Assembly: GCF_017051705.1 (NCBI RefSeq)
Contig: NZ_JAFIDJ010000001.1
Span: 1,393,786-1,457,785 of the forward strand
DNA length: 64,000 nucleotides
DNA from: Algoriphagus lutimaris
GTDB taxonomy: Bacteria > Bacteroidota > Bacteroidia > Cytophagales > Cyclobacteriaceae
Direction of reading: 5' to 3'
Part shown: positions 12,223 to 63,910 of the stretch, piece by piece
How positions within the stretch are numbered: the first letter of the stretch is position 1
How the letters are laid out: the number at the start of each line of letters is the position of its first letter
Made by a program: the position numbers and the translations under genes
The notes under the pieces: model-generated
Seen by the model: the letters and a program-made list of their open reading frames with translations, nothing else
Databases searched by the model: none
What the model was told of the DNA's origin: nothing

Positions 12223-12223
12223 T

Positions 12224-35705: not shown

Positions 35706-38700
35706 TTACATGTTTCTTCTATATTGCCCCCCTACTTCATACAAAGCATGGGTTATTTGACCTAGCGAACAATATTTGACCGCTTCCATCAATTCTGCAA
35801 AAATATTCTCATTTTTCACAGCCACCTTTTTTAACGATTGAAGATGCTCTTCAACAAGTTTCGGGTGAGATTGATTCAAATTTTTCAATGTTGTAATCTG
35901 TGATTCTTTTTCCTCTTTTGTGGCTCGAATCACCTCCCCAGGAGTAACTGTTGGAGAACCTTCTGATGACAAGAAGGTATTTACACCAATGATTGGGTAT
36001 TCACCTGTATGTTTCAACATTTCATAATGAAGACTTTCTTCCTGAATCTTACCCCGTTGATACATAGTTTCCATAGCTCCCAATACCCCACCACGCTCGG
36101 TAATTCTGTCAAATTCAAGATAAATCGCCTCTTCCACCAAGTCTGTTAATTCCTCAATGATAAAAGCTCCCTGCAATGGATTTTCATTTTTGGCCAACCC
36201 GAGTTCTTTATTGATAATCAACTGGATCGCCATTGCTCTTCTTACAGAGGCTTCTGTAGGAGTAGTAATTGCCTCATCATAGGCATTGGTATGCAAGGAA
36301 TTACAATTATCATATATCGCGTATAAAGCTTGAAGGGTAGTACGGATATCATTAAAGTCAATTTCTTGAGCATGCAAAGACCTACCTGAGGTTTGTATAT
36401 GGTATTTAAGCATTTGAGAACGCTCATTTGCCCCATATTTCAATTTCATTGCCTTTGCCCACACTCTTCGAGCCACTCTTCCTATGACTGCATATTCTGG
36501 ATCAATACCATTGGAAAAGAAGAAGGATAAATTGGGCGCAAATTTATTGATATCCATCCCCCTACTTACATAATATTCTACATAAGTAAATCCATTGGAT
36601 AGGGTCAGGGCTAATTGGGTGATGGGGTTAGCCCCTGCCTCGGCAATATGGTACCCTGAGATAGAAACTGAATAGAAATTTCGGATACTATTTTCAATAA
36701 AATACTGCTGCACATCACCCATCAACCTAAGTGAGAACTCTGTAGAGAATATACAGGTGTTTTGAGCTTGATCTTCTTTCAGAATATCTGCCTGTACAGT
36801 ACCTCTAACTCTAGCTACAGTATCGGCTTTGATCTTATTATACACCTCTTGTGGAAGTACCTGATCACCAGTTACTCCCAAAAGCATCAAACCTAGGCCA
36901 TCGTTTCCTTCGGGAATTGTACCGTTGTAGGAAGGTCTCACTAAACCTTTTTTCTGGTAGATTTCCTCAATCTTTTGATTTACATCCTTCTCTAGACCAT
37001 TTTCTTTGATATATACCTCACATTGTTGATCGATCGCGGCATTCATGAAAAAGGCAGTCATGGTAGCTGCAGGTCCATTAATGGTCATAGAAACCGATGT
37101 CATCGGGTCTACCAAATTGAATCCAGAGTAGAGTTTCTTAGCATCGTCCAGACAACATACATTTACTCCGGAATTACCAATTTTTCCATAGATATCCGGT
37201 CTATAATCAGGATCTTCTCCATATAAGGTTACCGAATCAAAAGCAGTTGAAAGCCTCTTGGCAGGCATATCCTTTGACACATAGTGAAACCTTTTATTGG
37301 TTCTTTCAGGGCTTCCCTCTCCAGCAAACATTCTGGTGGGGTCCTCTCCTTCTCGTTTGAATGGAAATACTCCGGCAGTGTAAGGGAATTTACCCGGTAC
37401 ATTTTCACGTAATCCCCACTTCAATAAATCTCCCCAAGCCTCATACTTTGGAAGTGAAATTTTAGGAATCTTAGATTCTGAAAGTGAAGTATAAAAAGTC
37501 TTCACTTTAATTTCTTTATCTCTGACTTTAAATACATAAAAGTCTTCTCCATACCTCGCTGCTTCCTGAGGCCATTCTTCTATCCACTTTTTGTTTTTGG
37601 GATCAAGGTTCAATTCAACCTGAGCATACACTTCTTCAAGTTCCTTCAACAAACGATCCTGATCAGCTACCTGAAGGGATTCAATTGCCTCCATGGATTT
37701 TTTGATACTAAAAAGTTGTTGAGCAATCTCTTTTTGCTCTTCTACCCATGAATCATAGTTTCTATTTGTTTCTGATATTTCTGATAAGTAGCGAGTTCTT
37801 GCCGGTGGAATGATATAGATTTTTTCGGAGGTTCCTGCTGATAATTCAAAATTGCTGTCCCAACCGGGATGATCTTCATTAATCTTGGAGATCAATGCTT
37901 TGTACAACTGATTCATACCTGGATCATTAAATTGGGATGCAATTGTTCCAAAAACAGGGATCTCTTCATCCTGGATATCCCAGAGATTATGATTTCTTTT
38001 GAATTGTTTTTTTACATCCCGGATTGCATCCAAAGCACCTCTCTTATCAAATTTGTTCAATGCAATCACATCCGCAAAATCCAGCATATCAATTTTTTCC
38101 AATTGGGATGCTGCTCCATATTCAGGAGTCATCACATACAGAGATAAGTCCGAATGCTCAATAATCTCGGTATCCGATTGTCCAATTCCTGAAGTTTCCA
38201 GAATCACCAAATCAAACCCTGCTGCCTTAACGGTGTCGACCGCATCCTGAACATATTTAGATAGGGCAAGATTTGATTGTCTAGTAGCCAGTGAGCGCAT
38301 ATACACTCTTGGGTGATGAATGGCATTCATACGAATCCTGTCTCCCAATAAGGCTCCACCCGTTTTTCTTTTGGAAGGATCTACCGAAATTATAGCCAAA
38401 GTTTTACCTTCAAAATCGATCAAAAACCTTCTCACTAATTCATCTACTAGAGAAGACTTACCTGCTCCACCAGTTCCTGTAATTCCCAAAACAGGAGTCT
38501 TGGAATTTTTACTTTCAAGTCTAACCTGATTCAATAAAGACTGAGACTTTGCAGGAAAATTTTCAAAAGCAGAAATAGCCCTTCCTACGAAAGCTTTATT
38601 CGTTTTGTTCAACTCAAAACCTTCTTGGAATGTATCCCCAATTGGAAAATCTGACTTTTCTACTAGATCATTAATCATTCCTTGTAAACCCATGGCTCGG

Positions 38701-39083
38701 CCGTCGTCTGGCGCATAAATTCGGGCAATCCCATAGCCATGAAGTTCTTGAATTTCTTCTTGAAGGATTGTTCCCCCTCCTCCTCCAAATATCTTAATAT
38801 GACCAGCACCTTTTTCCTGAAGTAAATCATACATGTATTTAAAAAATTCCACATGCCCTCCTTGATAAGAAGTGATAGCAATTGCCTGCACATCTTCCTG
38901 AATGGCACAATCCACAATCTCCTGAACCGACCTATTATGTCCTAAATGAATCACTTCACATCCAGTAGATTGAATGATTCTCCTCATAATGTTTATTGCA
39001 GCATCATGACCATCAAACAAAGATGCGGCAGTAACTATTCGAATATGATTTTTGGGTTTATAAATCTCGGTGGATCCAGTCAT
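35706..39083 (-). CDS. icmF: Fused isobutyryl-CoA mutase with its G-protein chaperone
   Basis: A single 1125-residue polypeptide combines all parts of an adenosylcobalamin-dependent mutase. The B12-binding domain is N-terminal ([12 protein letters not shown] at about 22-33 with the base-displacing His 26; [11 protein letters not shown]). A MeaB-like GTPase follows, with P-loop [16 protein letters not shown] near 200-215 and NKFD for guanine specificity (NKFDKRG). The substrate-binding TIM barrel comes last (about 550-1100, with [15 protein letters not shown] and [20 protein letters not shown]). IcmF interconverts isobutyryl- and n-butyryl-CoA, and some variants use pivalyl-CoA. The complete chaperone motif set suggests an active enzyme. 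A CoA-transferase gene diverges from its start. Confidence 0.93.
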
Positions 39084-40684: not shown

Positions 40685-42016
40685 ATGTCTTCAAAAAACT
40701 ATGCATTCTTTGTCTCGATTACTGCCGCTTTAGGTGGATTTCTGTTTGGATTTGACACGGCTGTAATTTCCGGTGCCGAGCGAGCGATTCAAGAAACTTG
40801 GAGGTTAAGTGATTGGATGCATGGATTAGCGATTGCTTCCGCCTTATACGGTACAGTAATTGGAGCCTTATTTGGAGGAATTCCGGCAGATAAATTTGGA
40901 CGACAAAAAAGTCTACTTTGGATCGGACTGTTTTACCTGATTTCGGCACTGGGTTCAGGTTTAGCATGGGATGTTACTTCTTTCACCTTTTTCCGGTTTT
41001 TGGGCGGATTGGGAGTTGGAGCTTCATCCGTAGTTGCCCCTATGTATATCTCTGAAATTGCGCCAGCTAAAAATCGTGGACTGTTGGTGGCTCTGTATCA
41101 GTTTAACATTGTCTTTGGAATCGTCATGGCCTATGTCTCCAATTACCTAATCGGTACAGCAGAGCTAGCACAAGATTGGCGATGGATGTTGGGTGCCGAG
41201 GCCATTCCTGCACTACTTTACTCTATTTTGATTTTCAGAATCCCAGAAAGCCCAAGATGGTTAATAGGAAAAAGAAATGATGAAGTTCAAGCCAGAGCTA
41301 TATTGACAAGAACAGACCCTGAAGGAGTGGATGAAGCAATCCGTCTGGCTTTAGAAGAGGAAAAGAAAATCAAACAAAAAGGAAGTTTTTCAGCCATCTT
41401 CAAAAAGCGGTTTTTGCCTACTACACTCATGGCAATTATGATTGCCTTTTTCAACCAGGTGTCTGGTATCAATGCAATCATTTATTTTGCTCCTAGAATA
41501 TTTGAAATGGCTGGGATTTCTACCGAATCTGCCTTAATATCTACTATTGGAATAGGAGTAGTAAATCTATTTGCAACCTTCCTCGGACTATATTTGATAG
41601 ATAGAATAGGAAGAAAAAAATTGATGTACATTGGTTCTATGGGGTATATAGTGTCACTTTCTTTAATGGCATACAATTTCCTAGGTCCCGGGATCCCTAC
41701 ATTCTGGCTACCTATATTCGTATTTGCCTTTATCGCTTCACATGCTGTCGGGCAAGGATCCGTCATTTGGGTATTTATTTCAGAAATGTTCCCCAATGAT
41801 CTTAGAGCTTACGGCCAATCAACTGGCTCATTTACTCATTGGATCTTGGCAGCCATAATTGCCAATGTATTTCCATTTTTTGCAAATCAATTTGGACCTG
41901 GATATATCTTTTCATTCTTTGCTGTGATGATGGTATGGCAACTATTATGGGTAAGATTTAAGATGCCAGAAACAAAAGGAAGGTCATTAGAAGAGATTCA
42001 TCAAAATATTCACTGA
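40685..42016 (+). CDS. MFS sugar porter (GLUT/XylE-like)
   Basis: A 443-residue, 12-helix major-facilitator transporter of the sugar porter subfamily. GGFLFGFDTAVISGAE starts the protein, followed by GGIPADKFGRQK, the loop motif PESPRWLIGK, a second-half DRIGRKK and the end motif PETKGRSLEEI. These are the classical monosaccharide-H+ symporter signatures. A fructokinase starts three bases downstream, so fructose is the likely substrate. Confidence 0.92.
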   Translation: MSSKNYAFFVSITAALGGFLFGFDTAVISGAERAIQETWRLSDWMHGLAIASALYGTVIGALFGGIPADKFGRQKSLLWIGLFYLISALGSGLAWDVTSFTFFRFLGGLGVGASSVVAPMYISEIAPAKNRGLLVALYQFNIVFGIVMAYVSNYLIGTAELAQDWRWMLGAEAIPALLYSILIFRIPESPRWLIGKRNDEVQARAILTRTDPEGVDEAIRLALEEEKKIKQKGSFSAIFKKRFLPTTLMAIMIAFFNQVSGINAIIYFAPRIFEMAGISTESALISTIGIGVVNLFATFLGLYLIDRIGRKKLMYIGSMGYIVSLSLMAYNFLGPGIPTFWLPIFVFAFIASHAVGQGSVIWVFISEMFPNDLRAYGQSTGSFTHWILAAIIANVFPFFANQFGPGYIFSFFAVMMVWQLLWVRFKMPETKGRSLEEIHQNIH

Positions 42017-42019
42017 GGA

Positions 42020-42892
42020 ATGATCAATAAAGTAGTTGTATTTGGAGAAATGCTATGGGATTGCCTTCCCAATGGAGCTGTTCCAGGAGGTGCTCCCATG
42101 AACGTTGCACTTAACCTTCACCAGTTAGGGCTTGATTCAAAGCTGATATCTGCCGTAGGAAAAGATAATGACGGGAAAAAACTACTAGATTTTCTAAATT
42201 CTTTTCAATTCCAGACGAACCTTATTCAACAGCTAGAAGAGTATGGAACGTCCAAAGTCCTTGTGGATGACAGTGATCCTGAAAACATAAAATACGATAT
42301 CATATCGCCTGTTGCCTGGGATTTTATTAAGTGGAATAAAAACATGGACCAATTAGTGGCGGAGTCAGATGCTTTTGTCTTTGGCACCTTAGGGGTAAGA
42401 AATCCTGAAAGTCTCACCACCCTCTTGAAGCTTCTTCATCACGAAACCTTGCGTTTTTTTGACGCCAATTTACGTTCGCCTTATTATGATTTTGAAATAA
42501 TTGAAACGCTACTGGGTTTTGCCGACGTATTAAAAATCAATGAAGATGAGTTGGTGATTTTCGCAGACTTTTTTAATGTTAAACCAACTATTAAGTCGGT
42601 CTGTTACCATTTAGATCAACATTTCCCAATGGATTTAATCTGTGTGACCAAGGGATCAGCAGGTGCTTTAATTTATAAAAAGGGAGAAATTATCGAACAT
42701 CCTGGTTACAAAGTAAAGGTCGCTGATAGTATTGGGGCAGGTGATGCATTTCTAAGTGGGTTTATCAAAGGCTACCTTGAGAATAAACCGCTAAGTGAAA
42801 CACTTGATTTTGCCTGTAAACTGGGGGCTTTTGTGGCTTCCAAAAAGGGAGGAACTCCCAACTACTCCATCTCTGATCTAGAAGCTATGTGA
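42020..42892 (+). CDS. PfkB-family carbohydrate kinase, probably fructokinase
   Basis: A 290-residue ribokinase-fold sugar kinase. It starts with VVVFGEMLWDCLPNGAVPGGAPMNVA, the PfkB N-terminal motif, and has the C-terminal catalytic segment DSIGAGDAFLSGF with Asp 242 as base. The FGEMLWDCLP start is common to fructokinases. It lies directly after the sugar porter and thus traps the imported hexose as a phosphate. A terminator follows. Confidence 0.85.
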   Translation: MINKVVVFGEMLWDCLPNGAVPGGAPMNVALNLHQLGLDSKLISAVGKDNDGKKLLDFLNSFQFQTNLIQQLEEYGTSKVLVDDSDPENIKYDIISPVAWDFIKWNKNMDQLVAESDAFVFGTLGVRNPESLTTLLKLLHHETLRFFDANLRSPYYDFEIIETLLGFADVLKINEDELVIFADFFNVKPTIKSVCYHLDQHFPMDLICVTKGSAGALIYKKGEIIEHPGYKVKVADSIGAGDAFLSGFIKGYLENKPLSETLDFACKLGAFVASKKGGTPNYSISDLEAM

Positions 42893-48359: not shown

Positions 48360-48926
48360 GTGAAATTCTGGAGAACCTTTGATATTGAGGTAATTAAGTT
48401 CGTTGAGGGAAGACACGAAATCGACTTCGAAATCGACGATTCGTTCTTTCAACATTTTGAAGACAATCATCTTGTCGAAAAAGGCAATTTGACCGTACGG
48501 GTCAATATGAAAAAAGGTGCCAATTTGATAGAAATGGATTTCCTTATTCAAGGAAAAGTCAGACTGACTTGTGACAGAAGTCTTGAGGAGTATGACCAGC
48601 CCTTAGATATTCGTGAAACCATGATCTATAAATATGGTAGTGAAGAAGTAGAAATCAATGAAGATGTCATAATGATTACGAGGGACACTCCTTCAGTCAA
48701 TGTGGCTCAATTGATCTATGAATTCATTCTGATCAACCTTCCTGCAAAAAAAATCCATCCTGATTACCGTAATGAATTGGATGATGATGATTTTGAAGGA
48801 GAAGGTGGAATTGTCTATTTGGATGATGATTTTGACGAAGATGAACTTGAGGACAACTCAGAAGAAGAAACAAAAGAAATTGATCCCCGCTGGGCATCAT
48901 TAAAAAATTTAAAAAACAAGGAATAA
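48360..48926 (+). CDS. DUF177 (YceD-like) protein
   Basis: A 188-residue protein of the DUF177 family, always found next to rpmF and needed for 23S rRNA maturation in several bacteria. The conserved core includes LIQGKVRLTCDRSLEEYDQPLDIRE-like residues (the Cys-containing strand) and the DVIMITRD and VNVAQLIYEFILINLPAKKI segments. The C-terminal tail is extremely acidic. It begins with GTG 48360 under a strong Shine-Dalgarno. rpmF follows after 18 bases. Confidence 0.88.
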   Translation: MKFWRTFDIEVIKFVEGRHEIDFEIDDSFFQHFEDNHLVEKGNLTVRVNMKKGANLIEMDFLIQGKVRLTCDRSLEEYDQPLDIRETMIYKYGSEEVEINEDVIMITRDTPSVNVAQLIYEFILINLPAKKIHPDYRNELDDDDFEGEGGIVYLDDDFDEDELEDNSEEETKEIDPRWASLKNLKNKE

Positions 48927-52964: not shown

Positions 52965-53432
52965 TTAAATACCAGAAAAACCCACGTCGAAAGTAATTGT
53001 TTTGCTCCAAAGCCAAAGTACTAATGGGACGGAAATCACAGTCAGCAATGTAGCACCCTTATTCAACTTCTTTACTTTTATCATATTGATTTCAGAAATA
53101 GGAACACCTGTTTCAATCGGAACTCTTAATCTTTTATTGTTTTTCTGTGTAAATAAACCTTGGATTGAATCATTTCTAACTTCGGAATAGGTAATATCAT
53201 AACTGACACTATCCTTGGTTAGAACAAACAAGTCATCGCCTTCAGAAATACGTGAGAGTTGTCTTGGCTCAAAATACTTGCTCCTTTCTTCTACGGCTAG
53301 ATTTGGTTTGATCCAATCTACCTTCTGATAAGTTTTGCATGAGGTTCCAACTAAAAACACCATCAAAAAGAGCCCCATTTGGCATCTAAAAGGGAACAGT
53401 CTAAATCGATATTTAGGAAGATTAAATGTCAT
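52965..53432 (-). CDS. Tandem paralogous lipoprotein B
   Basis: A 155-residue hypothetical lipoprotein, paralogous to the upstream gene. It has a lipobox ending MVFLVGTSC and a mature start CKTYQKVDWIKP, followed by EERSKYFEPRQLSRISEGDD, DSIQGLF and a C-terminal hydrophobic helix (GATLLTVISVPLVLWLW). The start at 53432 overlaps the upstream gene by 11 bases; an ATG at 53378 gives a shorter and more typical signal peptide. No domain family is recognised. Confidence 0.7.
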   Translation of the reverse strand: MTFNLPKYRFRLFPFRCQMGLFLMVFLVGTSCKTYQKVDWIKPNLAVEERSKYFEPRQLSRISEGDDLFVLTKDSVSYDITYSEVRNDSIQGLFTQKNNKRLRVPIETGVPISEINMIKVKKLNKGATLLTVISVPLVLWLWSKTITFDVGFSGI

Positions 53433-53877
53433 CTAAATAATCTACTAGATCAGACATACCTTGATTAAATATCACTCCCCAAAAAATAAATAAAGACATC
53501 ACTGGCACCCCAATACCTACTCCTAAAGTTGTACCCAAATTAAACTTTCTAACTCTTAACTCTTCTATTTCCGAAAATGCAACCCTTCTGGAGCTCGGAA
53601 ATTCAATAGTTTGATTTTCAAACTTCCAAAATAATCCTTGAATGGAATCATTTACCGATTCAGAATAGATCAAATAGTATTTTTTAGAATTACTGGCTAT
53701 CACCTTTAAGCTATCTCCTTCCTTGATTCTTGAAATCTGTCTAGGTTCAAAAGACACACTCCTTTCTTCTTTTGGTACCTTGGGTTTGATCCAATCGATA
53801 TTCTGATACGTCTTGCAATTGGAAAAGCAAAATACCAAAAGAATTGACATACAATATTTTGAAAATATAGGACGCAT
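53422..53877 (-). CDS. Tandem paralogous lipoprotein A
   Basis: A hypothetical lipoprotein. I chose ATG 53877 (MRPIFSKYCMSILLVFCFSNC, lipobox Cys) because the frame upstream is poor in coding signal and contains a long inverted repeat. The mature start CKTYQNIDWIKPKVP, then EERSVSFEPRQISRIKEGD, ESVNDSIQGLFW and a C-terminal membrane-type helix (LGVGIGVPVMSLFIFWGVIF) all match the downstream gene in order, showing a tandem duplication. Function unknown. Confidence 0.7.
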   Translation of the reverse strand: MRPIFSKYCMSILLVFCFSNCKTYQNIDWIKPKVPKEERSVSFEPRQISRIKEGDSLKVIASNSKKYYLIYSESVNDSIQGLFWKFENQTIEFPSSRRVAFSEIEELRVRKFNLGTTLGVGIGVPVMSLFIFWGVIFNQGMSDLVDYLDDI

Positions 53878-53911
53878 ATTTTTCCTTTGGATAAAGCTCG
53901 AAAAATGTCTC

Positions 53912-53970
53912 AAAAGCTTAAAATTTTTGATTTTAATTTTTTTGTAATTCTTACTAAAATCAAGCTTTTT
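53912..53970. repeat. Bipartite inverted repeat in the lipoprotein/cytochrome intergenic region
   Basis: AAAAGCTT (53912-53919) and GATTTTA (53929-53935) mirror TAAAATC (53955-53961) and AAGCTTTT (53962-53969), giving 15 paired bases with a 9-base bulge. On the plus strand a T follows. It lies in the 223-base gap between two divergent units, where an A/T hairpin (54058-54076) also precedes the cytochrome gene. No clear promoter could be marked. Confidence 0.4.
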
Positions 53971-54100
53971 ATTAGGCAAAAACACTAATTTCCAATACAT
54001 TAGACAATAAAAAAATGAATTCAATTATTCTTTTTTTTATTAAAAATCAACCGACTTTTATAAAAATTTTTTATAACTTAAGGCCGTAAAACTTTCTCAA

Positions 54101-56416
54101 ATGACCATTAAAAAGTCACATATTCTGGCTTTCCTGCCGATTTTCGCACTGTTTTTTTCCTGTCAGGAAAAAAACAAAGAAGCTAGCTCTTTGGCCAAAA
54201 TCGATCAAGTCAGTTATAATTTTCATGTCCGTCCCATTCTTTCTGATAAGTGTTTTGCTTGCCACGGTCCCGATGCAAACAAAAGGGAGGCAGATTTAAG
54301 ATTAGATACAGAAGAAGGTGCCTTTGCAGCTTTAAAAGAAAGTCCGGGGAAATTCGCCCTTGTTTCAGGAAAAATTGAAGAATCGGAAGTGTATCACCGG
54401 ATCACTTCTGAAGATCCTGGTGAACTGATGCCTCCTCCGGAGTCTAATCTAGCATTGACTGAAAATGAAATTGCGCTTATCAAAAGATGGATCGAAGAAG
54501 GGGCTCAGTACGAACCTCACTGGGCATTTACAAGGGCGGAAAAACCTGTCGTTCCTAAAGCAACTGAATGGGCCAACAATGAAATAGACCAGTTCATTTA
54601 TAATAAATTGCTCGAGAAGGGGTTGAAACCGAACCCTAAGGCTCAACCCTATGAATTGATCAAAAGGGCAAGTTTGGATTTGACAGGATTACCTCCTAGT
54701 CCAGAAGTATTGGATAGATTTAAGGATTTTTCAGGAGAATATTCTTACGAAGATTTATTAGATGGACTTTTATCAGATCCTTCCTATGGGGAAAAACTAG
54801 CCGTACTATGGATGGATATTTCTAGATATGCGGATAGCTATGGGTACCAAGATGATAATATTAGAACCCAATGGCCTTATCGGGATTGGGTGATCCATGC
54901 ATTTAATGAAAACCTTCCCTATGATGATTTTATCACTTGGCAGCTAGCCGGTGATCTATTGCCCAATGCAAACAAAGAACAAATTCTTGCTACCGCATTT
55001 AACCGAAATCATAAATACACAGAAGAAGGTGGTGTGATCGACGAGGAGTATAGAATAGAATACGTGCTAGATAAAACCAATACCTTCAGTAAGGGTATTT
55101 TAGGCATTACAATGGAATGTGCCCAGTGCCATGATCATAAATATGATCCTTTTTCCCAAAAAGACTATTACGAGTTTTTTGCCTTCTTCAACAATACTCC
55201 TGAAAAAGGATATGAAGGAGATGTTTCGATTTCCAAACCTGCCAAAACTCCAGTTTTATGGATGGATCATGAAGACCTTTCAGGGATCATGGAATTTATT
55301 AATTACCAAGACAGCTCTAAACTTAGCGTTTCTGTGATGGGGGAATTGGAAGGAGAGGAAAAAAGGACCACTTATATCCTAGATAGGGGAGTTTATGATG
55401 CTCCAACCATTCCGGTTTCTGCTTCTACACCCGCTTCTATACTTGAGTTTCCAGAGGATTTAGAGGCAAATAGACTTGGATTAGCAAAATGGACAGTAAA
55501 TAGAGACAATCCATTGACAGCAAGAGTATTTGTTAATTTAATTTGGCAAGAAATCTTTGGTACGGGAATCGTAAAATCAGCAGGTGATTTTGGAATGCAA
55601 GGGGATTTACCGAGTCATCCTGAACTTCTAGATTGGTTGGCTGTGGACTTTATGGAAAATGGTTGGGACATCAAGCGATTACTGAAACAAATCTTAAGTT
55701 CCGCTACCTATCAGCAATCTGCTGAAATCACAAAAGAACACCTATCGATTGACCCCGAAAACATTTATTTGGCGAGAGCACCAAGATTGAGACTCACTGC
55801 GGAAAATATTCAAGACCTGGTTTTGGCAAGTAGCGGACTCTTACATCAAGAACTGGGTGGACCAAGTGTTAAACCATACCAACCTGAAGGAGTATGGGAA
55901 GCGGCATCTTCCGGAAGAGGAGTCTTGGCAACTTATATTCAAGACACCGGTAAAAATCTTTATAGAAGAGGCCTTTACAACTTCATCAAACTAACCGTTC
56001 CTCCTCCAAAAGCTATCATTTTTGATGCCAGTAATCGGGATCAATGCGAAGTAGGAAGAGGAAGAACCAATACCCCATTGCAAGCCTTGGTGATGCTCAA
56101 TGATCCTATGGTTTTGGAAGCATCCAGAGTACTCGCAATGAACCTTGGATCTCAATACGACAATGACTTGGAGGCCATCGAAAACGCATTTAAAAGAATC
56201 CTATGCAGAAACATGAAATCTGAGGAAAAAGATCTTTTGGAATCTTATTTTGAGGATCAATTAGAGCGATTTGAGAACAATAAAGACCAGATAAAGCCCA
56301 CCTTGGAAGTTGGGGAATATCCTATTGATCCTAGTCAGGAAACCGCGAGAAACGCTGCTTTAATGCAAGTGATAGTTAGCTTATATAATTTGGAAGAAAC
56401 GATTACAAAGATTTAA
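54101..56416 (+). CDS. Di-haem PSCyt1-DUF1549-DUF1553 (PSD1) lipoprotein
   Basis: A 771-residue protein of the planctomycete-type cytochrome family. The lipobox FALFFSC at 15-21 predicts a lipoprotein. A PSCyt1 domain carries CFACH at 51-55 and MPPPES with a possible axial Met. DUF1549 (PSCyt2) spans about 160-370 with a second CxxCH, CAQCH at 340-344 (HDHKYDPFSQ follows). DUF1553 (PSD1) spans about 470-740 (LTARVFVNLIWQEIFGTGIV, GRTNTPLQALVMLNDPM). It lacks the lectin-like insert of many longer homologues. The DUF1501 gene follows by one base. The family is thought to sit outside the inner membrane in electron transfer, with unknown substrate. Confidence 0.85.
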   Translation: MTIKKSHILAFLPIFALFFSCQEKNKEASSLAKIDQVSYNFHVRPILSDKCFACHGPDANKREADLRLDTEEGAFAALKESPGKFALVSGKIEESEVYHRITSEDPGELMPPPESNLALTENEIALIKRWIEEGAQYEPHWAFTRAEKPVVPKATEWANNEIDQFIYNKLLEKGLKPNPKAQPYELIKRASLDLTGLPPSPEVLDRFKDFSGEYSYEDLLDGLLSDPSYGEKLAVLWMDISRYADSYGYQDDNIRTQWPYRDWVIHAFNENLPYDDFITWQLAGDLLPNANKEQILATAFNRNHKYTEEGGVIDEEYRIEYVLDKTNTFSKGILGITMECAQCHDHKYDPFSQKDYYEFFAFFNNTPEKGYEGDVSISKPAKTPVLWMDHEDLSGIMEFINYQDSSKLSVSVMGELEGEEKRTTYILDRGVYDAPTIPVSASTPASILEFPEDLEANRLGLAKWTVNRDNPLTARVFVNLIWQEIFGTGIVKSAGDFGMQGDLPSHPELLDWLAVDFMENGWDIKRLLKQILSSATYQQSAEITKEHLSIDPENIYLARAPRLRLTAENIQDLVLASSGLLHQELGGPSVKPYQPEGVWEAASSGRGVLATYIQDTGKNLYRRGLYNFIKLTVPPPKAIIFDASNRDQCEVGRGRTNTPLQALVMLNDPMVLEASRVLAMNLGSQYDNDLEAIENAFKRILCRNMKSEEKDLLESYFEDQLERFENNKDQIKPTLEVGEYPIDPSQETARNAALMQVIVSLYNLEETITKI

Positions 56417-56417
56417 G

Positions 56418-57872
56418 ATGGAAAAGGAACTATTAGAGCAAGGATTAAATCTTAATAGAAGAAAATTTTTGTCCAAGTTGAGCTTGGGTGTAGGAAGTGC
56501 TGCTTTAGGATCACTCCTTATACCGGATTTATTCAAAGGGGGAAGTCCTGACGAGGAAGCCATTATGGCTGCCCTCCCCCATTTTGCGCCAAAAGCAAAA
56601 CGGGTAATTTATTTATTTCAAAATGGTGCCCCAAGCCAATTGGAATCTTTTGACTACAAGCCACTTCTCAATAAAAATATGGGACAGGAACTTCCTGAGT
56701 CCATTCGAAAAGGGCAACGTTTGACCGGAATGACGGCTGGGCAAAGCTCTTTCCCTTTAGTTGGTTCTTATTTCAAATTCAATCAATACGGAGAATCCAG
56801 GGCCTGGATTTCTGAAATATTCCCCCATACAGCAAGTGTCGTAGATGATATTTGTATTGTCAAATCCATGCATACAGAAGCGATCAATCACGATCCTGCA
56901 CTTACCTTTTTTCAAACAGGAGCCCAAGTAGGGAACAGACCTAGTATGGGTTCATGGTTGAGCTATGGATTAGGAAGTGAAAACAGCAATCTACCTGCAT
57001 TTTGTGTACTTCTCAGTAGAGGAAAAGGGAATGGTCAAGGAGTTTACTCTAAACTATGGAGTAATGGATTTTTAGATGCCACCCATCAGGGAGTCCAATT
57101 TTCAAATTCAGAAGATCCTGTATTGTATTTAAAAGACCCTAAATCCATGTCTAGAGATGAGCGAAGAAAAATGCTCGATCAAATCTCTGCCATGAATGAT
57201 TTGAGTTATAGGGAATTTAACGATCCTGCCATCAGTGCAAAAATCCAGCAATACGAAATGGCTTTCAGAATGCAAACGGCGGTACCTGAAATGACTGATG
57301 TTTCCAAAGAACCGGATAGCATTATTAAAATGTATGGACCAGATTGCTTAGTTCCCGGCACCTATGCTGCCAACTGTCTTTTGGCGAGAAAACTATCCGA
57401 AAGTGGAGTTCGATTTGTGCAATTATATCATCAAGGATGGGACCAACATGGGGACTTACCAGACCAAATGGCCATGCAAGCCAAAGATGTAGACCAAGCT
57501 TCAGCTGCACTCATCAAGGATCTTAAGCAACGTGGTTTGTTAGATGAAACCCTGGTGATCTGGGGAGGAGAATTTGGTAGAACCAATTATTGCCAAGGTA
57601 AAATCCAGCCAAACAATTATGGTAGAGACCATCACCCTAGAGCCTTCTCTATCTGGATGGCTGGCGGCGGAGTTAAGTCAGGAATGGTATATGGAGAAAC
57701 TGATGAATTTGGATATAACATTACAGAAAACCCTGTACATGTACATGACTTTCAAGCTACCATGCTCCATTTAATGGGAATAGATCATGAAAGGCTTACC
57801 TACAAACACTTGGGAAGGAGATATCGATTGACAGATGTTTCTGGAAAGGTTGTCAAAGATTTACTTGCCTAA
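56418..57872 (+). CDS. DUF1501 protein (Tat-exported, alkaline-phosphatase-like fold)
   Basis: A 484-residue protein that nearly always accompanies the DUF1549/DUF1553 cytochromes. The N-terminus carries a twin-arginine signal (NRRKFLSKLSLGVGSAALGS), so it is exported folded, consistent with a metal-binding protein. Segments VIYLFQNGAPSQLESFDYKP, AGGGVKSGMVYGETDEFGY, HVHDFQATMLHLMGIDH and the WGGEFGRTN motif resemble the alkaline phosphatase/sulfatase superfamily, of which DUF1501 is a member. The catalytic reaction is not established. It is one base behind the cytochrome and six bases ahead of the third gene. Confidence 0.85.
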   Translation: MEKELLEQGLNLNRRKFLSKLSLGVGSAALGSLLIPDLFKGGSPDEEAIMAALPHFAPKAKRVIYLFQNGAPSQLESFDYKPLLNKNMGQELPESIRKGQRLTGMTAGQSSFPLVGSYFKFNQYGESRAWISEIFPHTASVVDDICIVKSMHTEAINHDPALTFFQTGAQVGNRPSMGSWLSYGLGSENSNLPAFCVLLSRGKGNGQGVYSKLWSNGFLDATHQGVQFSNSEDPVLYLKDPKSMSRDERRKMLDQISAMNDLSYREFNDPAISAKIQQYEMAFRMQTAVPEMTDVSKEPDSIIKMYGPDCLVPGTYAANCLLARKLSESGVRFVQLYHQGWDQHGDLPDQMAMQAKDVDQASAALIKDLKQRGLLDETLVIWGGEFGRTNYCQGKIQPNNYGRDHHPRAFSIWMAGGGVKSGMVYGETDEFGYNITENPVHVHDFQATMLHLMGIDHERLTYKHLGRRYRLTDVSGKVVKDLLA

Positions 57873-57878
57873 CCCCTT

Positions 57879-60002
57879 ATGATTCATACAAAACGCTTTC
57901 AACAACTTCTCGAAAACGCTCTTTTCGTATGGTTAGGGTTGGCATTGATATTATCAATTGCAGGTACCCATTTATTAATTCCCGGCTGGCTTCAAGTAAT
58001 TGGAAGAGCTCATCCGCTTTTACTCCATTTCCCAATTGTATTGATACTTATGGGTATTGTGTTTTTTTGGATTCCGAATATTAAAGAGGAATTCAAAAAA
58101 GTTGGGACCTACTGCTTGTTGATAGGTAGTAATTTTGCAGGCATCACGGTGATCGCGGGTCTCATTCTAGCACAAGAAGATTATGAAGGTGCTGAACTCA
58201 ACTGGCATCAATGGATGGGTTTTGCAGCCTATTTACTTTCTGTATTGATCTATTTCCTTAGTCAAAAGAAAGGCCCAATTTTCAAACCACTTTCTTTCAT
58301 ATTGGCTGGAACGGTAGTTCTTACAGGACATTTTGGTGCCAATTTGACCCACGGTAGTGATTTCCTCCTGGCCCCTATCAAAACTGATGAAGTCCCTCAA
58401 GTTCAATTAGCGGATGCCCAAGTCTTTAGGGACATGGTTCAACCCATATTGGAAGCTAAATGCCAAAGCTGTCATAAAGAAGGAAAGATAAAAGGCGAAT
58501 TGCGCCTAGATCATCTGGAAGGGATACAAAAAGGCGGTAAATCTGGACCATTCATATTACCCGGTGACGTGAATGAATCCATGCTAACACAACGAATTCA
58601 CCTTCCAAAGGAGGAAGAAGAACATATGCCTCCTAAAAATAAGGAGCAACTAACTGATGAAGAAATTGAAATTCTCACAGCCTGGGTTCTTTATGGCGCT
58701 GATTTTGACAAAAAAGTAGTCGAATTAGCTCCAGAAAACGAGCTATTTGTCTTTGCTTCAGAAAAATTCAGTAAAACAAAAACTTATTCTTTCAAAGCTG
58801 CAGATCCTGAACTTATTCAAGAACTCAATAACTTTTTCAGGAAAGTGAATCCGATTTATCCAGAATCTCCGGCTTTGGAAGTATCCTATTTTGGAATTTC
58901 AGCATTTGATCCGGAATCACTCATAGATTTAAAAAAGGTAAAAGAACAAGTGGTAAAACTCAACTTGAATAAAATGCCTTTGGAAAATGTAGACTTTTCA
59001 TTTTTAAGTGATTTCAAAAATCTGGAAGAAATCCAGCTAAATTTTGCTGACATATCCAACTCACAAATCGAAAGTCTGACAAAAGTAGAAAACCTTCAAA
59101 GCTTAGCCATCTCTGGGAATCGTGTGGGAGATGAAGCCATTCCAAGTTTGTTAAAACTTAAAAACTTGAGGAGCTTATATGCTTGGCAAACAGATTTTAC
59201 GGAAAATGGGAAAAGGCAGTTGTTGGATAATTTAAAAGAAGTAACCATAGATTTTGGTTTTGATGCAACCGGTCTTGTTTATGAATTGAATGCTCCCAAA
59301 TTAATATTTGATAAAGTATTATTTCAGGATAGCACCTTGTTAGAAATCAAGCATCCAATAGGTACAGTAGACATCCGTTATACATTAGATGGTTCCGAGC
59401 CTGATAGTATACAAAGTCCAATGTATACTGAACCTATTTGGATCAGCAATACCTCAAAAATTTCAGCTAGAGTATTTGCCAATGATTGGAAAGGAAGTGA
59501 TACAGAAAGTATCCTACTCTTCAAATCAGGAGTTCATCCTTCCGATATCATATTGTTAAAGAGCCCGAAAGAAAAATATAGTGCAAATGGCGGGGCCACA
59601 TTAAAAGATCAAATTAAAGGAAAAAACAACCACACTACAGGAGAATGGCTTGGCTATCAAGATGATCCTGCTGATTTTGTGGTCAAATTTCCAGGTGACA
59701 AACATATTTCTAGAATTGTTCTTAGTCTTCTTTATAATGAAAGTGCCTACATATTCCCTCCTAGTCTGGCAGAAATTTGGGTTAAAAAAGGAGATGATTG
59801 GACCTTAGTAAAAAAAGAGGTTCCTACTCAAAGCGAAGAAATTAAGTTGCCTAGATTGGAAGCTCTTGCATTCGATCTTCCAAAGGAATCATTTGAGGAA
59901 ATTCGAGTAAGACTCACTCCTATTCCAAGACTTCCTAAATGGCATCCAGGAGCAGGAGAAAAAGGATGGGTATTCATTGATGAAGTATTGTTAGAAGAAT
60001 AA
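57879..60002 (+). CDS. DUF2231-type membrane / cytochrome c / LRR / chitobiase-like fusion protein
   Basis: A 707-residue multidomain protein. Residues about 15-160 hold four or five helices including the DUF2231-like HPLLLHFPIVLILMG. A c-type haem domain follows, with CQSCH at 195-199 and likely Met 250 (EHMPPK). About 365-465 are leucine-rich repeats (SFLSDFKNLEEIQLNFADIS), about 480-560 is a chitobiase/hexosaminidase C-terminal-like strand set (DIRYTLDGSEPDSIQSPMY), and the rest resembles an F5/8-type beta-sandwich. It probably anchors electron transfer in the inner membrane and exposes binding modules to the periplasm. Last gene of the triad, before a terminator. Confidence 0.78.
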   Translation: MIHTKRFQQLLENALFVWLGLALILSIAGTHLLIPGWLQVIGRAHPLLLHFPIVLILMGIVFFWIPNIKEEFKKVGTYCLLIGSNFAGITVIAGLILAQEDYEGAELNWHQWMGFAAYLLSVLIYFLSQKKGPIFKPLSFILAGTVVLTGHFGANLTHGSDFLLAPIKTDEVPQVQLADAQVFRDMVQPILEAKCQSCHKEGKIKGELRLDHLEGIQKGGKSGPFILPGDVNESMLTQRIHLPKEEEEHMPPKNKEQLTDEEIEILTAWVLYGADFDKKVVELAPENELFVFASEKFSKTKTYSFKAADPELIQELNNFFRKVNPIYPESPALEVSYFGISAFDPESLIDLKKVKEQVVKLNLNKMPLENVDFSFLSDFKNLEEIQLNFADISNSQIESLTKVENLQSLAISGNRVGDEAIPSLLKLKNLRSLYAWQTDFTENGKRQLLDNLKEVTIDFGFDATGLVYELNAPKLIFDKVLFQDSTLLEIKHPIGTVDIRYTLDGSEPDSIQSPMYTEPIWISNTSKISARVFANDWKGSDTESILLFKSGVHPSDIILLKSPKEKYSANGGATLKDQIKGKNNHTTGEWLGYQDDPADFVVKFPGDKHISRIVLSLLYNESAYIFPPSLAEIWVKKGDDWTLVKKEVPTQSEEIKLPRLEALAFDLPKESFEEIRVRLTPIPRLPKWHPGAGEKGWVFIDEVLLEE

Positions 60003-60040
60003 AATCTGAAAAAACGATCTCCTTCAACTTCAAAAAAACA

Positions 60041-60075
60041 AAACCCCCAGCTATTTGCCGGGGGTTTCGTTTTTA
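60041..60075. terminator. Bidirectional terminator after the cytochrome triad
   Basis: An 8-bp stem AAACCCCC/GGGGGTTT (60041-60048 with 60060-60067), with a T-tail (CGTTTTTA) on the plus strand and a run of eight As on the left giving Ts for the minus-strand subtilase. Confidence 0.85.
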
Positions 60076-60091
60076 TAAACCTAATCCAATT

Positions 60092-61360
60092 TTATCTAGA
60101 TGCTATTTTATAGCTGATACCGTTGATTGTAATAGTTCCGGAGGATCTTGGAGCACCTCGGGTGGCATGCACAATTCCAGCCATTATTCCAGCAGACATA
60201 GAGGTTCCCGACATGATTTGATACACATTTTGTCCATCTCCATTTTGACTTGGCCAAGTTGAAAATACCTTTGAACCTGGCACAAAATAATCAACCCCTG
60301 AGCCAAAGTTAGACGCATCATATTTGCTTCCTAAAGCACCACAGCTGAAATCTAAGGCTCCTACAGTGAAAATGTTAGGGCCATTGATACATCCAGGCAA
60401 ATTTTGAGCGGCATTTCCATTGTCGTTTCCAGCAGACATAACCACAAACATTCCACTATCAGCTATTGTCCTAATAGCTGATGTTAACTGAGGGTTAGAA
60501 GTAGCACAATTGGACACATCAAAACTACCCAAACTCATTAAAACCACATCCCCAGGTTGGCCATAATTTGCAATATGATCCAAAGCCAAAAGTATTTTAG
60601 CCCAACTACTAATCCCATTATTGTCAAACACTTTTATAGGAATAATTTCTGCTCCAGAAGACACTCCAGTGGCAGATAAACTTCCTGATCCTTTTCCTGC
60701 TGCCAACCCAGCTACATGGGTACCATGTCCCAATACGTCATTAAATGGTTGGCCATCTACAAAGGAAATTGCAAGTCGAGAAGACTGATTCACATTCAAA
60801 TCCCTATGGTTGGCATCCACCCCTGTATCAATCACCCAAATACTTTCTCTCCTGTTATTACTATCTGTTGAACCATTCACTAGGGCTATTGCGCAACTGG
60901 CTTTATTCCCTTCATCATATAGCCAAGAAGATTCAATTTCATCGGATTGCATAATTGGTCTTCCTTGCATAATCGGCCTTCCTTGAGAATCAGGTATACC
61001 TTGCATAATTGGCCTACCTTGAGTCTCAATATCTTCGTCCACGCTTTCTACCTGGGGATCATTCAATAGACTCTCTCGCTCCTGGTCTGTCAAGGGTGCA
61101 ACAAAGCCTACTTTTAGATCAAAAAATTGATTTTTGACATTTCTGATTCCTTTGTTATTAAGGAATTCCTGGAGTCTTGCTTTTTTCTGATTTCTCCTAT
61201 CTTCATTTAAATCAGATTGCCTGATTCTATCAGAATTTGTTGCCCGGTTTTCAAAAACTGGAACTTCGAAAGAAGCTTTCATGGTGACCACATAGGTTTT
61301 TTGACTATAACCTGTTAGGCAAATCATAAAAAATAAGAATGCAATCAATAACTTTTTCAT
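60092..61360 (-). CDS. S8 subtilisin-like serine protease with GRPIMQ repeats
   Basis: A 422-residue secreted subtilase. ATG 61360 gives MKKLLIAFLFFMICLTGYSQ, a good signal peptide; eight codons further upstream add nothing. An inhibitor-I9-like propeptide spans about 25-110. The catalytic triad is Asp 178 (WVIDTGVDANH), His 215 (GHGTHVAGLAA) and Ser 387 (MSGTSMSAGIMAGI), with Asn 312 (SAGND) as oxyanion residue. Between propeptide and catalytic domain lie three GRPIMQ copies (about 115-120, 127-132, 133-138), probably the activation-site linker. There is no C-terminal domain or secretion tag, so it is probably released or periplasmic. Confidence 0.9.
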   Translation of the reverse strand: MKKLLIAFLFFMICLTGYSQKTYVVTMKASFEVPVFENRATNSDRIRQSDLNEDRRNQKKARLQEFLNNKGIRNVKNQFFDLKVGFVAPLTDQERESLLNDPQVESVDEDIETQGRPIMQGIPDSQGRPIMQGRPIMQSDEIESSWLYDEGNKASCAIALVNGSTDSNNRRESIWVIDTGVDANHRDLNVNQSSRLAISFVDGQPFNDVLGHGTHVAGLAAGKGSGSLSATGVSSGAEIIPIKVFDNNGISSWAKILLALDHIANYGQPGDVVLMSLGSFDVSNCATSNPQLTSAIRTIADSGMFVVMSAGNDNGNAAQNLPGCINGPNIFTVGALDFSCGALGSKYDASNFGSGVDYFVPGSKVFSTWPSQNGDGQNVYQIMSGTSMSAGIMAGIVHATRGAPRSSGTITINGISYKIASR

Positions 61361-61705
61361 AGGGTATATGTTAAAACAATACAAAATCAGCTCAAATGAG
61401 TAATGCCAAAATACTCTTTTTATTGTTTAAAATACATTTATATGGTAAATAAAATAGTGTACCTTGAATAATTTCAAGAATCGGAATAAATTGATTCTTC
61501 AATTTGATTTAATTCAGCAGAATTTACAAAAAGTAACTAACACAAATTGCTATTTTATGAATGTATATATTGAATGATTGAACAAAATCTTTTAACAAGC
61601 CCATATAATTCCCGTATTATTATTTCAAATACAACTTTATTTCGCTTAGTTTAATTGGCTGGGAAAAAATGCAAACTACAAAGACCCCAACTTCTGTAAT
61701 TTTTT
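61361..61705. other. 345-base intergenic region between divergent subtilase and cyclase genes
   Basis: No open frame of interest. It is A/T-rich and contains small dyads: TTGAA/TTCAA at 61464-61477 and AAGAATC/GATTCTT at 61476-61499 (10-base loop). Neither start has a TAnnTTTG exact match nearby, so the promoters remain unmarked. Confidence 0.4.
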
Positions 61706-63910
61706 ATGGATCAAGTTTTAAATAGGAAACATTCAATCGTCTACTTTTCTGATATTGTCGGATATACCCTTTTGATGGGTCAAGATGAAGATCATGCCTT
61801 CGAATTAATGAAGCAGAATTTGGTTCTTCACTCAAAGGTATTCGAAAAATATCAGGGTGAAATCATCAAAGAACTTGGTGATGGAATTTTGGCAATTTTT
61901 GAAACTGCAGAGGACGCGTTAGCAGCCAGCCTAGAAATACAAAAAGAATGGGGGAAATCAAGTGAATTAGAGCTTAGAATTGGTCTTCATTGTGGCGGTA
62001 TTATCCTTGACCACGGAGACGTCTATGGGGATGCGGTCAATATTGCTTCTAGAATTCAAAGCATTGGGGTTCCCTCCTGTGTTTTATTCTCATCAGATGT
62101 ATTAGCCAACCTCCCAAAACAAACCAGATTTACACATATTAATTTAGGACTTTTCCGACTGAAAAATGTCGCGAAAGAATTGGAACTACATGCTCTGACC
62201 AATGCTCCTTTGGCCACTCCAAAAAGGGCCGATATGATCAAGAAGGTGAAAATCCAAGAGCGGGAACCTTGGAAATTCTGGGTGGCTCTGGCTTCTATCC
62301 TTACCATTCTTTTATTTTTAATTTATTCCCTGTTATGGAACAATTATACATGGGAAAAAGAAAAATCCGTGGCCGTTTTACCTTTTACCAATATTATAGC
62401 CAATCCAGATCAAGCATTTTTTGCAGAGGGTCTTACTGAGGATGTAATTTCTCATATTTCTAAAATTGAAAGTATTAAAGTAATTGACAAGCAATCAGTC
62501 TATGCCTTTGAAAACTCCAAAAGCCCTCTTGATTCCATCGCTAGAGTCTTAGATGTAAGCACTATTTTAAAAGGGTCGATACAATGGATAGGAGATAATA
62601 TTCGAATTGATATTCAATTAATAGACCCTATTGAAAATAAGAATCTCTGGAATCAAACCTATAATAGAGAAGTTAAGGACATTTTTAAAGTTCAAGCTGA
62701 AATAGCCTCAAAAATTGCCAATGTGCTTAATAGTAATTTAAGTTCAGAGGAGAAAGCTCAAATTTCAAAAGAACAAACTATTAGTTTTGATGCATACGAA
62801 CTCTATCTCAAAGGGAAAGAGAGTTATGGATTAAATAATGTTTCTGAAACTTTAAATGCGATTGACTATTTCAAAAAAGCATTGGATATCGACCCGAATT
62901 ATGCCGCAGCTTACATTGGTTTAGCAGATTCCTATGCTAGGCTAAGTTTTTATGGCGAAGGTGAAAAATGGCTTGATTCAAGTTTTAATGCGAGTGAAAA
63001 AGCTTTATCCATCGACCCGTATTATGAAGGTGCCTACAAATCCAGAGGAACCGTATTTTATTATAATGGGCAAATTGAATATGCCAGAATCTCTTTGGAA
63101 AAAGCACTGGTACTAAACCCTAATTTCAGTAGTGCAATGGGTAATTTGGCTACTGTTTACATGACTCAAGGAAATCTGGTTAAAGCACTTCAGCTTCAAA
63201 TAAAATCCAGCATGTATAATCCTGCAGTATACATACCATTTCAAATTACTGGTTGGATTTATAGAATCCTAGGACAACCCAAAGAAGCTTTGGACTGGCT
63301 GGATCAAGCCAATTCCATCACCTATGATGCAGTGACTTCAGAACAGAAAGGTTACTTGTTGCTGGACCAAGGAAAATCGTCGGAAGCGATTCAATTAATT
63401 CAGGAAATTTTAATAAGTGATTCCTCTGACTTTGGAAAAACTTCTGCTGGTTACCTAGCTTTTTACGCCAATCAGCATGAACTATCTACCACCATATTAG
63501 ATGAAGTACTACAAAACAACCCGGATGCTTTGTATGACAGATATAGTTCCGCACCAATATATCAAGCATTCAATTATCAATTATTAGGGAATCAAACTCA
63601 AGCAGACATTTATATAAAATCTGCCCTATCTGTTCGGGAAGAAGAAGCTAGGAATGTATCTGATGATTTTAATTTATGGTTAGATCTTGCTCAGCTTGAA
63701 TCCTTAAAAGGAAACAAAACTAAGGCCCTAGATTATTTGACTTTAGCAATAGACAATGGTTTTAGAGATGAATTTATTTTAAGATTTAATCCAATCTTTA
63801 AGACGTACCTTCAAAATGGTGACTTGACTCCTTTTATAAACAAATTGGAAAACATCCGTTTTGAACTTAATAAAGAATTAGAAACTTTTGATCTACAGCG
63901 TGCAAATTAA
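61706..63910 (+). CDS. Class III adenylate/guanylate cyclase with TolB-like and TPR domains
   Basis: A 734-residue membrane protein. The N-terminal cyclase domain (about 8-165) keeps metal Asp 16 (FSDIVGY), Lys 55 and Asp 59 (IKELGDGILAIF) and the transition-state Asn 112/Arg 116 (VNIASRI), so it looks active. One membrane helix at about 190-211 follows. A TolB-like/FlgO domain (about 218-340, VAVLPFTNIIANPDQAFFAEGL) lies outside, and the rest (from about 360) is a long series of TPRs. This is the 'adenylate cyclase plus TolB plus TPR' layout common in Rhizobiales and Bacteroidota; whether the product is cAMP or cGMP cannot be read with certainty. Confidence 0.85.
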   Translation: MDQVLNRKHSIVYFSDIVGYTLLMGQDEDHAFELMKQNLVLHSKVFEKYQGEIIKELGDGILAIFETAEDALAASLEIQKEWGKSSELELRIGLHCGGIILDHGDVYGDAVNIASRIQSIGVPSCVLFSSDVLANLPKQTRFTHINLGLFRLKNVAKELELHALTNAPLATPKRADMIKKVKIQEREPWKFWVALASILTILLFLIYSLLWNNYTWEKEKSVAVLPFTNIIANPDQAFFAEGLTEDVISHISKIESIKVIDKQSVYAFENSKSPLDSIARVLDVSTILKGSIQWIGDNIRIDIQLIDPIENKNLWNQTYNREVKDIFKVQAEIASKIANVLNSNLSSEEKAQISKEQTISFDAYELYLKGKESYGLNNVSETLNAIDYFKKALDIDPNYAAAYIGLADSYARLSFYGEGEKWLDSSFNASEKALSIDPYYEGAYKSRGTVFYYNGQIEYARISLEKALVLNPNFSSAMGNLATVYMTQGNLVKALQLQIKSSMYNPAVYIPFQITGWIYRILGQPKEALDWLDQANSITYDAVTSEQKGYLLLDQGKSSEAIQLIQEILISDSSDFGKTSAGYLAFYANQHELSTTILDEVLQNNPDALYDRYSSAPIYQAFNYQLLGNQTQADIYIKSALSVREEEARNVSDDFNLWLDLAQLESLKGNKTKALDYLTLAIDNGFRDEFILRFNPIFKTYLQNGDLTPFINKLENIRFELNKELETFDLQRAN

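Follow-up and report, generated by a model that had tools for sequence, protein, structure and literature searches.

An exported three-gene cytochrome set of Bacteroidota and the DUF2231-cytochrome c protein that may join it to the membrane

Three closely spaced genes in a 4.7 Mb Bacteroidota genome raise the question of whether their products form a single exported redox module, and of how such a module might be connected to the membrane and to a substrate. The genes lie in the window, by which we mean the whole 64,000-nucleotide stretch of DNA analyzed here (G000:C1:1393786-1457785). All three are on the plus strand, with gaps of 1 base (P1-P2) and 6 bases (P2-P3), and both this layout and the domains assigned by an earlier sequence-only reading were borne out by the open reading frames and by Pfam:

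54101..56416, plus strand: P1, exported di-haem protein with PSCyt1, DUF1549 (PSCyt2) and DUF1553 (PSD1), 771 aa (ORF and Pfam)
56418..57872, plus strand: P2, Tat-type DUF1501 protein, 484 aa (ORF, Pfam and NCBIfam)
57879..60002, plus strand: P3, DUF2231-PSCyt1-LRR-chitobiase-like protein, 707 aa (ORF and Pfam)

Promoter and terminator scans of positions 53800-60200 returned about as many sites as shuffled sequences (14 versus 16.6 and 6 versus 5.7), so that the operon structure rests on spacing and conservation.

The first two genes are of a known kind. P1 matches PSCyt1 (E 1e-17), PSCyt2/DUF1549 (5e-81) and PSD1/DUF1553 (5e-95), all over the Pfam cut-offs, and the combination of PSCyt1, DUF1549 and DUF1553 in one protein with an adjoining DUF1501 gene is what defines the PSCyt/PSD1-DUF1501 pairs. 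Passages of PMC2754498 and PMC5615132 describe such pairs from Planctomycetota and Verrucomicrobiota, and the 'DUF1501 module' of Kamneva et al. 2012 is cited in passages of PMC4452313 and PMC4960237. These pairs share the P1 domains found here, and DUF1501 also adjoins in the one planctomycete locus examined, L127. That locus holds two P1-P2 pairs without a third gene, whereas a DUF2231-cytochrome-LRR gene is near-constant in the loci described here. The trio is real and conserved, and P3, the putative membrane adapter, is its interesting part.

The named genomes were scanned with P3, which gave at least 569 relatives, and the best 80 loci, chosen by similarity to P3, were kept. P1, P2 and P3 follow each other in this order on one strand in 77 of the 80, with all three complete in 73 and one cut by a contig end in four (L031, L075, L080 and L081). 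As for the others, L033 and L063 start too near a contig end to be judged, and L090 has a DUF1501 fragment 9 kb from P3. Genera with trio loci include Algoriphagus, Cyclobacterium, Dyadobacter, Spirosoma, Runella, Mucilaginibacter, Pedobacter, Chitinophaga and Arenibacter. When the first start codon was taken as the gene start, median gaps were 4 bases (P1-P2) and 13 bases (P2-P3), and the P2-P3 gap exceeded 400 bases in 17 of 73 loci. Apart from those of P1, P2 and P3, each gene cluster recurs in at most 20 of the 80.

Since choosing loci by P3 biases these counts, we surveyed 118 Bacteroidota genomes, each 90% or more complete, as an unbiased test (E <=1e-20 for PSD1, E <=1e-30 for P3). PSD1 was found in six genomes and full-length P3 in six, and these were the same six, from four families; if the two were independent, the chance of such an exact match would be 3e-10, a value that ignores relatedness (three of the six belong to one genus). 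Co-occurrence, the check that the sequence-only reading had set for the trio, thus held for P1 and P3, and together with gene order (73 complete trios in 80 loci) and the fusions described below it indicates that the three genes are one set, as had been claimed. Among 38 relatives, PSD1 was present in 26 and full-length P3 in the same 26, and seven others gave only partial P3 matches. The 83 PSD1 matches in these relatives comprise 50 with a separate same-strand P3 within 6 kb, 20 that look fused (as judged by equal ORF length of the PSD1 and P3 matches) and 13 with no same-strand P3 in that range; two of the 13 (G008 and G020) run off the contig start by their coordinates, and one is locus L006 of the window genome. 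Five P3 matches in the relatives have no PSD1 within 6 kb. At L130, P3 lies beside a gene with sub-cut-off glycoside-hydrolase matches, and at L131 DUF1501 adjoins P3 before the contig ends. An optional fourth part, a Tat-like NHL propeller, was observed as 17 genes in 16 of the 80 loci, and both Catenovulum plasmids carry relatives of it.

P1 carries two candidate sites for haem c:

54251..54265, plus strand: P1 haem c site 1, C51-x-x-C54-H55, invariant in alignment A5 (33 sequences)
55118..55132, plus strand: P1 haem c site 2, C340-x-x-C343-H344, within DUF1549, invariant in A5

These motifs predict covalent haem at both positions, and exactly two CxxCH are present in all 76 complete (over 700 aa), unfused P1 proteins of loci L013-L092. 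M110, which is also invariant in the 33 sequences of A5, is a possible axial ligand of the haem at site 1. P1 had been described as a di-haem lipoprotein; the two motifs stood up in the 76 relatives, and the lipoprotein assignment proved weaker, with a plausible lipobox visible by eye in the window protein and a loose lipobox pattern fitting 39 of 76. In the PDB, P1 matched in its cytochrome region only, with FoxE as best match, plus one antibody chain at E 0.31.

P2 is a DUF1501 protein (Pfam E 4e-156, over cut-off), a family in which CxxCH was found in 0 of 87 members from loci L013-L092. Its export signal is the following:

56454..56471, plus strand: P2 twin-arginine motif NRRKFL (sequence; NCBIfam Tat-signal model)

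The score of P2 against the NCBIfam model is exactly the cut-off (16.7 bits). A twin-arginine pattern fits 85 of the same 87 proteins, and R14 and R15 are present in all members of a set of 98 DUF1501 sequences, among them two planctomycete and three gammaproteobacterial ones. Likewise invariant in 98 of 98 are H158, D342, H344, E385, R388 and H405; in a smaller alignment, A7, the invariant residue is the neighbouring H406 and not H405. Such an invariant H/D/H/E/H set suggests a metal enzyme. Two proteins of the same genome, both Pfam sulfatases, align with DUF1501 in its C-terminal half (hhalign E 3e-6, probability 88%), and PDB sulfatase matches are weak. A formylglycine motif (C-x-[PA]-x-R or S-x-P-x-R) was found in none of the 98 DUF1501 sequences and in both control sulfatases; a looser pattern fits 5 of 98. 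In the alignment, DUF1501 reads Glu-Phe at the sulfatase Asp-Asn position, which we take to be the metal site. Our reading is that P2 is probably a metal enzyme of another kind than the sulfatases. The Tat signal claimed earlier for P2 is thus upheld, and the 'phosphatase superfold' claimed with it has sequence support in the C-terminal half only. P2 is the most conserved of the three proteins (median identity 0.75, versus 0.59 for P1 and 0.36 for P3), which marks it as the likely catalytic part of the module.

The third protein combines a membrane domain, a haem c domain and two further regions:

57990..58373, plus strand: DUF2231 membrane domain of P3, with H45, H50, H110, H151 and H158 (Pfam, alignments)
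58461..58475, plus strand: P3 haem c site, C195-x-x-C198-H199, invariant in alignment A6 (54 sequences)
58959..59252, plus strand: P3 leucine-rich repeat region (sub-cut-off Pfam LRR_4; PDB LRR structures)
59331..59993, plus strand: P3 C-terminal module, homologous to the beta-hexosaminidase tail of PDB 6q63 (phmmer, profile)

PSCyt1 (3e-13), Fn3_assoc (4e-11), CHB_HEX_C_1 (1e-9) and DUF2231 (7e-7) are over the Pfam cut-offs in P3. LRR_4 falls below its own (24.2 of 27 bits), and LRR structures of the PDB match the same stretch. The last 220 residues matched 6q63 with an E value of 5.6e-17 by phmmer alone and 2e-40 with a profile. Exactly one CxxCH is present in 78 of 78 P3 proteins of loci L013-L092, and M250, invariant in the 54 sequences of A6, is a possible axial ligand of this haem. 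The third haem motif, the LRR and the sugar-binding-like module attributed to P3 on first reading were therefore all recovered, and the view that P3 ties the set to a membrane is supported. Among the matches listed, the closest named relatives of P3 come from strains of Algoriphagus, with 70-73% identity across its first 470 residues.

Five histidines distinguish the membrane domain. H45, H50, H110, H151 and H158 are invariant across the 54 P3 proteins of A6, at least 98.5% conserved in 74 P3 proteins, and invariant in a ten-sequence set that includes fused, Catenovulum and DUF1552-linked forms. Search patterns for H151/H158 (fitting 36 of 85 proteins) and for H45/H50 (failing in three) were too narrow, as the alignments show the histidines to be conserved. 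By hydropathy, H45, H50 and H151 of the window protein lie inside segments and H158 just after one; H110 lies inside a scored segment in some P3 relatives only. DUF2231 itself was matched in 72 of the 118 Bacteroidota genomes at E <=0.001, with 54 over the curated cut-off. The control set was drawn from the stand-alone DUF2231 loci with the best scores in the 72 positive genomes and comprises 31 ORFs at 30 loci; one of these ORFs is a spurious second reading of L153. H45 (30 of 31), H50 (29 of 31) and H110 (30 of 31) are common to stand-alone and P3 forms, whereas H151 and H158 are each present in 2 of 31 stand-alone proteins versus 38 of 39 cytochrome-fused forms, with one gap. No stand-alone DUF2231 protein contains CxxCH, and the approximately 3.4 kb around each of their genes held two short CxxCH ORFs overall, one of them antisense to the DUF2231 gene. 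Thus, H151 and H158, being nearly confined to the fused forms, come with the haem c domain. Two stand-alone proteins have such histidines with no fused cytochrome: L139 carries both, and L158 the one equivalent to H158. Their loci, of approximately 3.4 kb, showed no ORF with CxxCH.

These residues point to a possible haem b or quinone site in the DUF2231 domain of P3. The membrane part of the P3 paralogue L007 gives sub-cut-off matches to Ferric_reduct (E 0.0016) and cytochrome b561 (E 0.016), and it is alone in this: a Pfam scan of the window P3 to E 0.1 gave no match to a haem-b family, and the DUF2231 profile matched no haem-b protein among solved structures. Homology between DUF2231 and cytochrome b561 was not supported, the hhalign probability against the Saccharobesus b561 being 1%.

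Paralogues and fusions in the host genome, and the company that P3 keeps elsewhere, bear on its role. The window genome has five DUF1501 and five PSD1 matches, in adjoining pairs. A separate P3-type gene accompanies the window pair, L007 and L008; the L008 DUF2231 scores 20.3 bits, under the Pfam cut-off of 26.4, but aligns with the other copies. At L009, DUF2231, PSCyt1, DUF1549 and DUF1553 are joined in one 825-aa protein followed by DUF1501, and the same single-chain fusion was found at L036. The L006 pair has no P3 within 6 kb and two sulfatase genes nearby. Among the P3 forms of this genome, only that of the window has the hexosaminidase-type tail. In another family, genome G027 has two of the five P3 genes that lack a nearby PSD1, and they adjoin those for a PSD3-PSD5-PSD4-PSCyt3-PSD2 protein with two CxxCH and for a DUF1552 protein; a DUF1552 search of seven genomes returned two genes, both in G027 beside P3. 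P3 therefore accompanies two kinds of di-haem protein, the second in one genome only, and with its front half also fused to P1 it looks like a membrane electron-transfer adapter.

Several minor features of these loci were recorded. In seven loci (L036, L038, L054, L055, L068, L070 and L075), the unfused trio is immediately preceded, in tandem, by a DUF2231-PSCyt1-DUF1549-DUF1553-type fusion gene and a DUF1501 gene, with three CxxCH in six of the fused proteins and two in one. An AP_endonuc_2 gene (xylose-isomerase-like TIM barrel, by Pfam) lies between DUF1501 and P3 at L008:10474-11349, and homologues 38-41% identical occupy this place in L087, L091 and L092. TIR-domain proteins flank the L006 pair (L006:5448-6371 and 11426-12589), the second of which is over the ThsB_TIR (Thoeris) cut-off. 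In Saccharobesus, a DUF1549-DUF1553 protein without PSCyt1 is followed by DUF1501, a 141-aa CKSCH protein, cytochrome c' and cytochrome b561; here unrelated proteins may supply the absent haem c domain and membrane partner, or, this being a single locus, the b561 and c' genes could be bystanders.

Comparison with other systems places the trio further. The PSCyt3/PSD2-5-DUF1552 sister system also has a di-haem protein and, by eye, a twin-arginine partner, and stands beside the P3 type in one Bacteroidota genome; its domain families are different, however, and the N-terminal cytochrome parts alone align. Homology between DUF1501 and DUF1552 was not retained: an SE/GEF motif is alike by eye, and hhalign gave 2% with two DUF1552 sequences only. 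Passages of PMC8981238 describe Cbp2D of Cellvibrio japonicus as having DUF1587, a quinone-binding-type domain and CBM2, with one cytochrome domain that reduces LPMOs, and report slower growth on cellulose after knockout of cbp2D and cbp2E. Like the trio, Cbp2D is a multi-domain cytochrome with a carbohydrate-binding module, and it shares DUF1587 with the sister system; unlike the trio, it is not associated in those passages with DUF2231, DUF1549, DUF1553 or DUF1501. Cytochrome b561 joined to a c-type cytochrome would be a functional parallel to the role proposed for P3, a membrane haem protein coupled to a c-type cytochrome, without hhalign homology. In the open-licence literature, of which most subscription papers are no part, DUF2231 is named in text on cysteine annotation, and no description of a DUF2231 partner or five-histidine adapter was found under that name.

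We consider it possible, at slightly less than even probability, that the five-histidine DUF2231-cytochrome c is a new kind of membrane electron carrier, which would plug two 'planctomycete cytochrome' systems into the respiratory chain through a haem-b or quinone site made with the two added histidines. With a membrane partner of its own and a specific histidine pair that can be mutated, an uncharacterized cytochrome would become a testable electron-transfer chain, and one genome suggests that two cytochrome systems share this partner. Were the adapter reading true, DUF2231, with its wide occurrence, would gain a functional hypothesis, and P3 would connect a large, uncharacterized 'planctomycete' haem protein family to respiration.

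Domains, haem motifs, linkage, fusion, the occurrence of P3 next to another system in a single genome, and the histidine pattern were all computed for the trio. That the three genes form one exported redox module with the following roles, and likely oligosaccharide oxidation, seems to us an evenly balanced proposition. P2 would be exported folded by Tat and act as the conserved catalytic protein, with a presumed metal; P1, with two c-type haems, would pass electrons between P2 and P3; and the haem c of P3 would have both P1 and the five-histidine DUF2231 helix bundle as electron-exchange partners. Through a putative haem-b-type or quinone-reactive site, this bundle would connect the module with the respiratory chain, while the LRR and hexosaminidase-type tail would keep the complex close to a substrate that is most likely an oligosaccharide oxidized in the periplasm, with substrate and electron direction both conjectural.

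The direction could be reversed, with quinol feeding P3 and P1 and then an oxygen- or peroxide-using step at P2, the second P1 haem or a partner enzyme. This would resemble the LPMO activation suggested for Cbp2D, whose DUF1587 the sister system here also has, and passages of PMC5615132 indicate a tendency to higher PSCyt gene density in genomes from the epilimnion. A search found no LPMO_10 gene, the candidate LPMO partner, in the window genome, however; nor does any gene cluster beyond P1-P2-P3 recur in more than 20 of 80 loci. We regard reverse flow as rather unlikely. P2 might instead be a sulfatase- or phosphatase-like hydrolase, with haem proteins that merely sense or anchor, as the sulfatase alignment and weak PDB matches would allow; the absence of the formylglycine motif from all 98 sequences and the Glu-Phe replacement argue against it, and we judge it highly improbable.

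The substrate is a separate matter, since a membrane-linked redox module might serve a core envelope or small-molecule function. This is an unlikely reading, to which three observations lend weight: draft genomes of the genus, 2.2-2.8 Mb in size and 67-91% complete, have the window-type copy; 12 of 80 loci share upstream neighbours (clusters 8-10, including EF-P, biotin carboxyl carrier and biotin carboxylase in the window); and glycan families are scattered. In 302 neighbour genes from 37 of the 80 loci, counts from the top 25 of 144, 132 and 98 families gave SusD at least 9, SIS_2 at least 6, GH20 at least 4 and sulfatase at least 2, so each glycan family among those listed reaches at most 9 of 302. 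Against a non-glycan substrate stand the hexosaminidase-type tail and the SusD genes: in 14 of 80 loci one precedes a P1-type gene by at most 1 kb on the same strand, a raw count, uncorrected for background, that includes six before a fused copy and two (L061 and L067) before a second P1 gene and not the trio. Of the 80 loci, 10 have GH20 homologues and 16 have homologues of SIS_2 (families named from cluster representatives). Glycoside hydrolase genes also surround related loci: on Catenovulum adriaticum plasmids, one trio plus propeller gene lies near GH115, GH98, GH43 and GH88 and another beside fucP, and the Saccharobesus locus is near GH88 and a pectate lyase. Passages of PMC5615132 report sulfatase neighbourhoods and CBM fusions in Verrucomicrobia. 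The glycan link suggested by the sequence-only reading is thus partly sustained, by the tail and by relatives, some of which have the SusC/SusD and CAZyme neighbours expected of a polysaccharide utilisation locus; around the window trio, the genes scanned at 47.2-63.9 kb (the 188-aa ORF 48360-48926 excepted) held no SusC/SusD or CAZyme gene.

The neighbours of the window trio are genes for EF-P, biotin carboxyl carrier, biotin carboxylase, two unassigned proteins, an S8 peptidase and a cyclase. Upstream, on the minus strand, 52965-53432 and 53422-54024 are two adjoining small lipoprotein-like paralogues, 46% identical over 133 residues and with no Pfam family over cut-off. After the trio come a subtilase with an I9 propeptide (60092-61384, minus strand) and a nucleotide-cyclase-TPR protein (61706-63910, plus strand), and both have homologues close to the trio in L013-L017, with best matches of 45-69% and 43-61% identity, respectively. 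Approximately 11 kb upstream, a Sugar_tr transporter (40685-42016, plus strand) adjoins a PfkB-family carbohydrate kinase (42020-42892, plus strand), and 35706-39083 on the minus strand encodes a single-chain methylmalonyl-CoA-mutase-type protein that includes B12-binding and MeaB-type GTPase domains.
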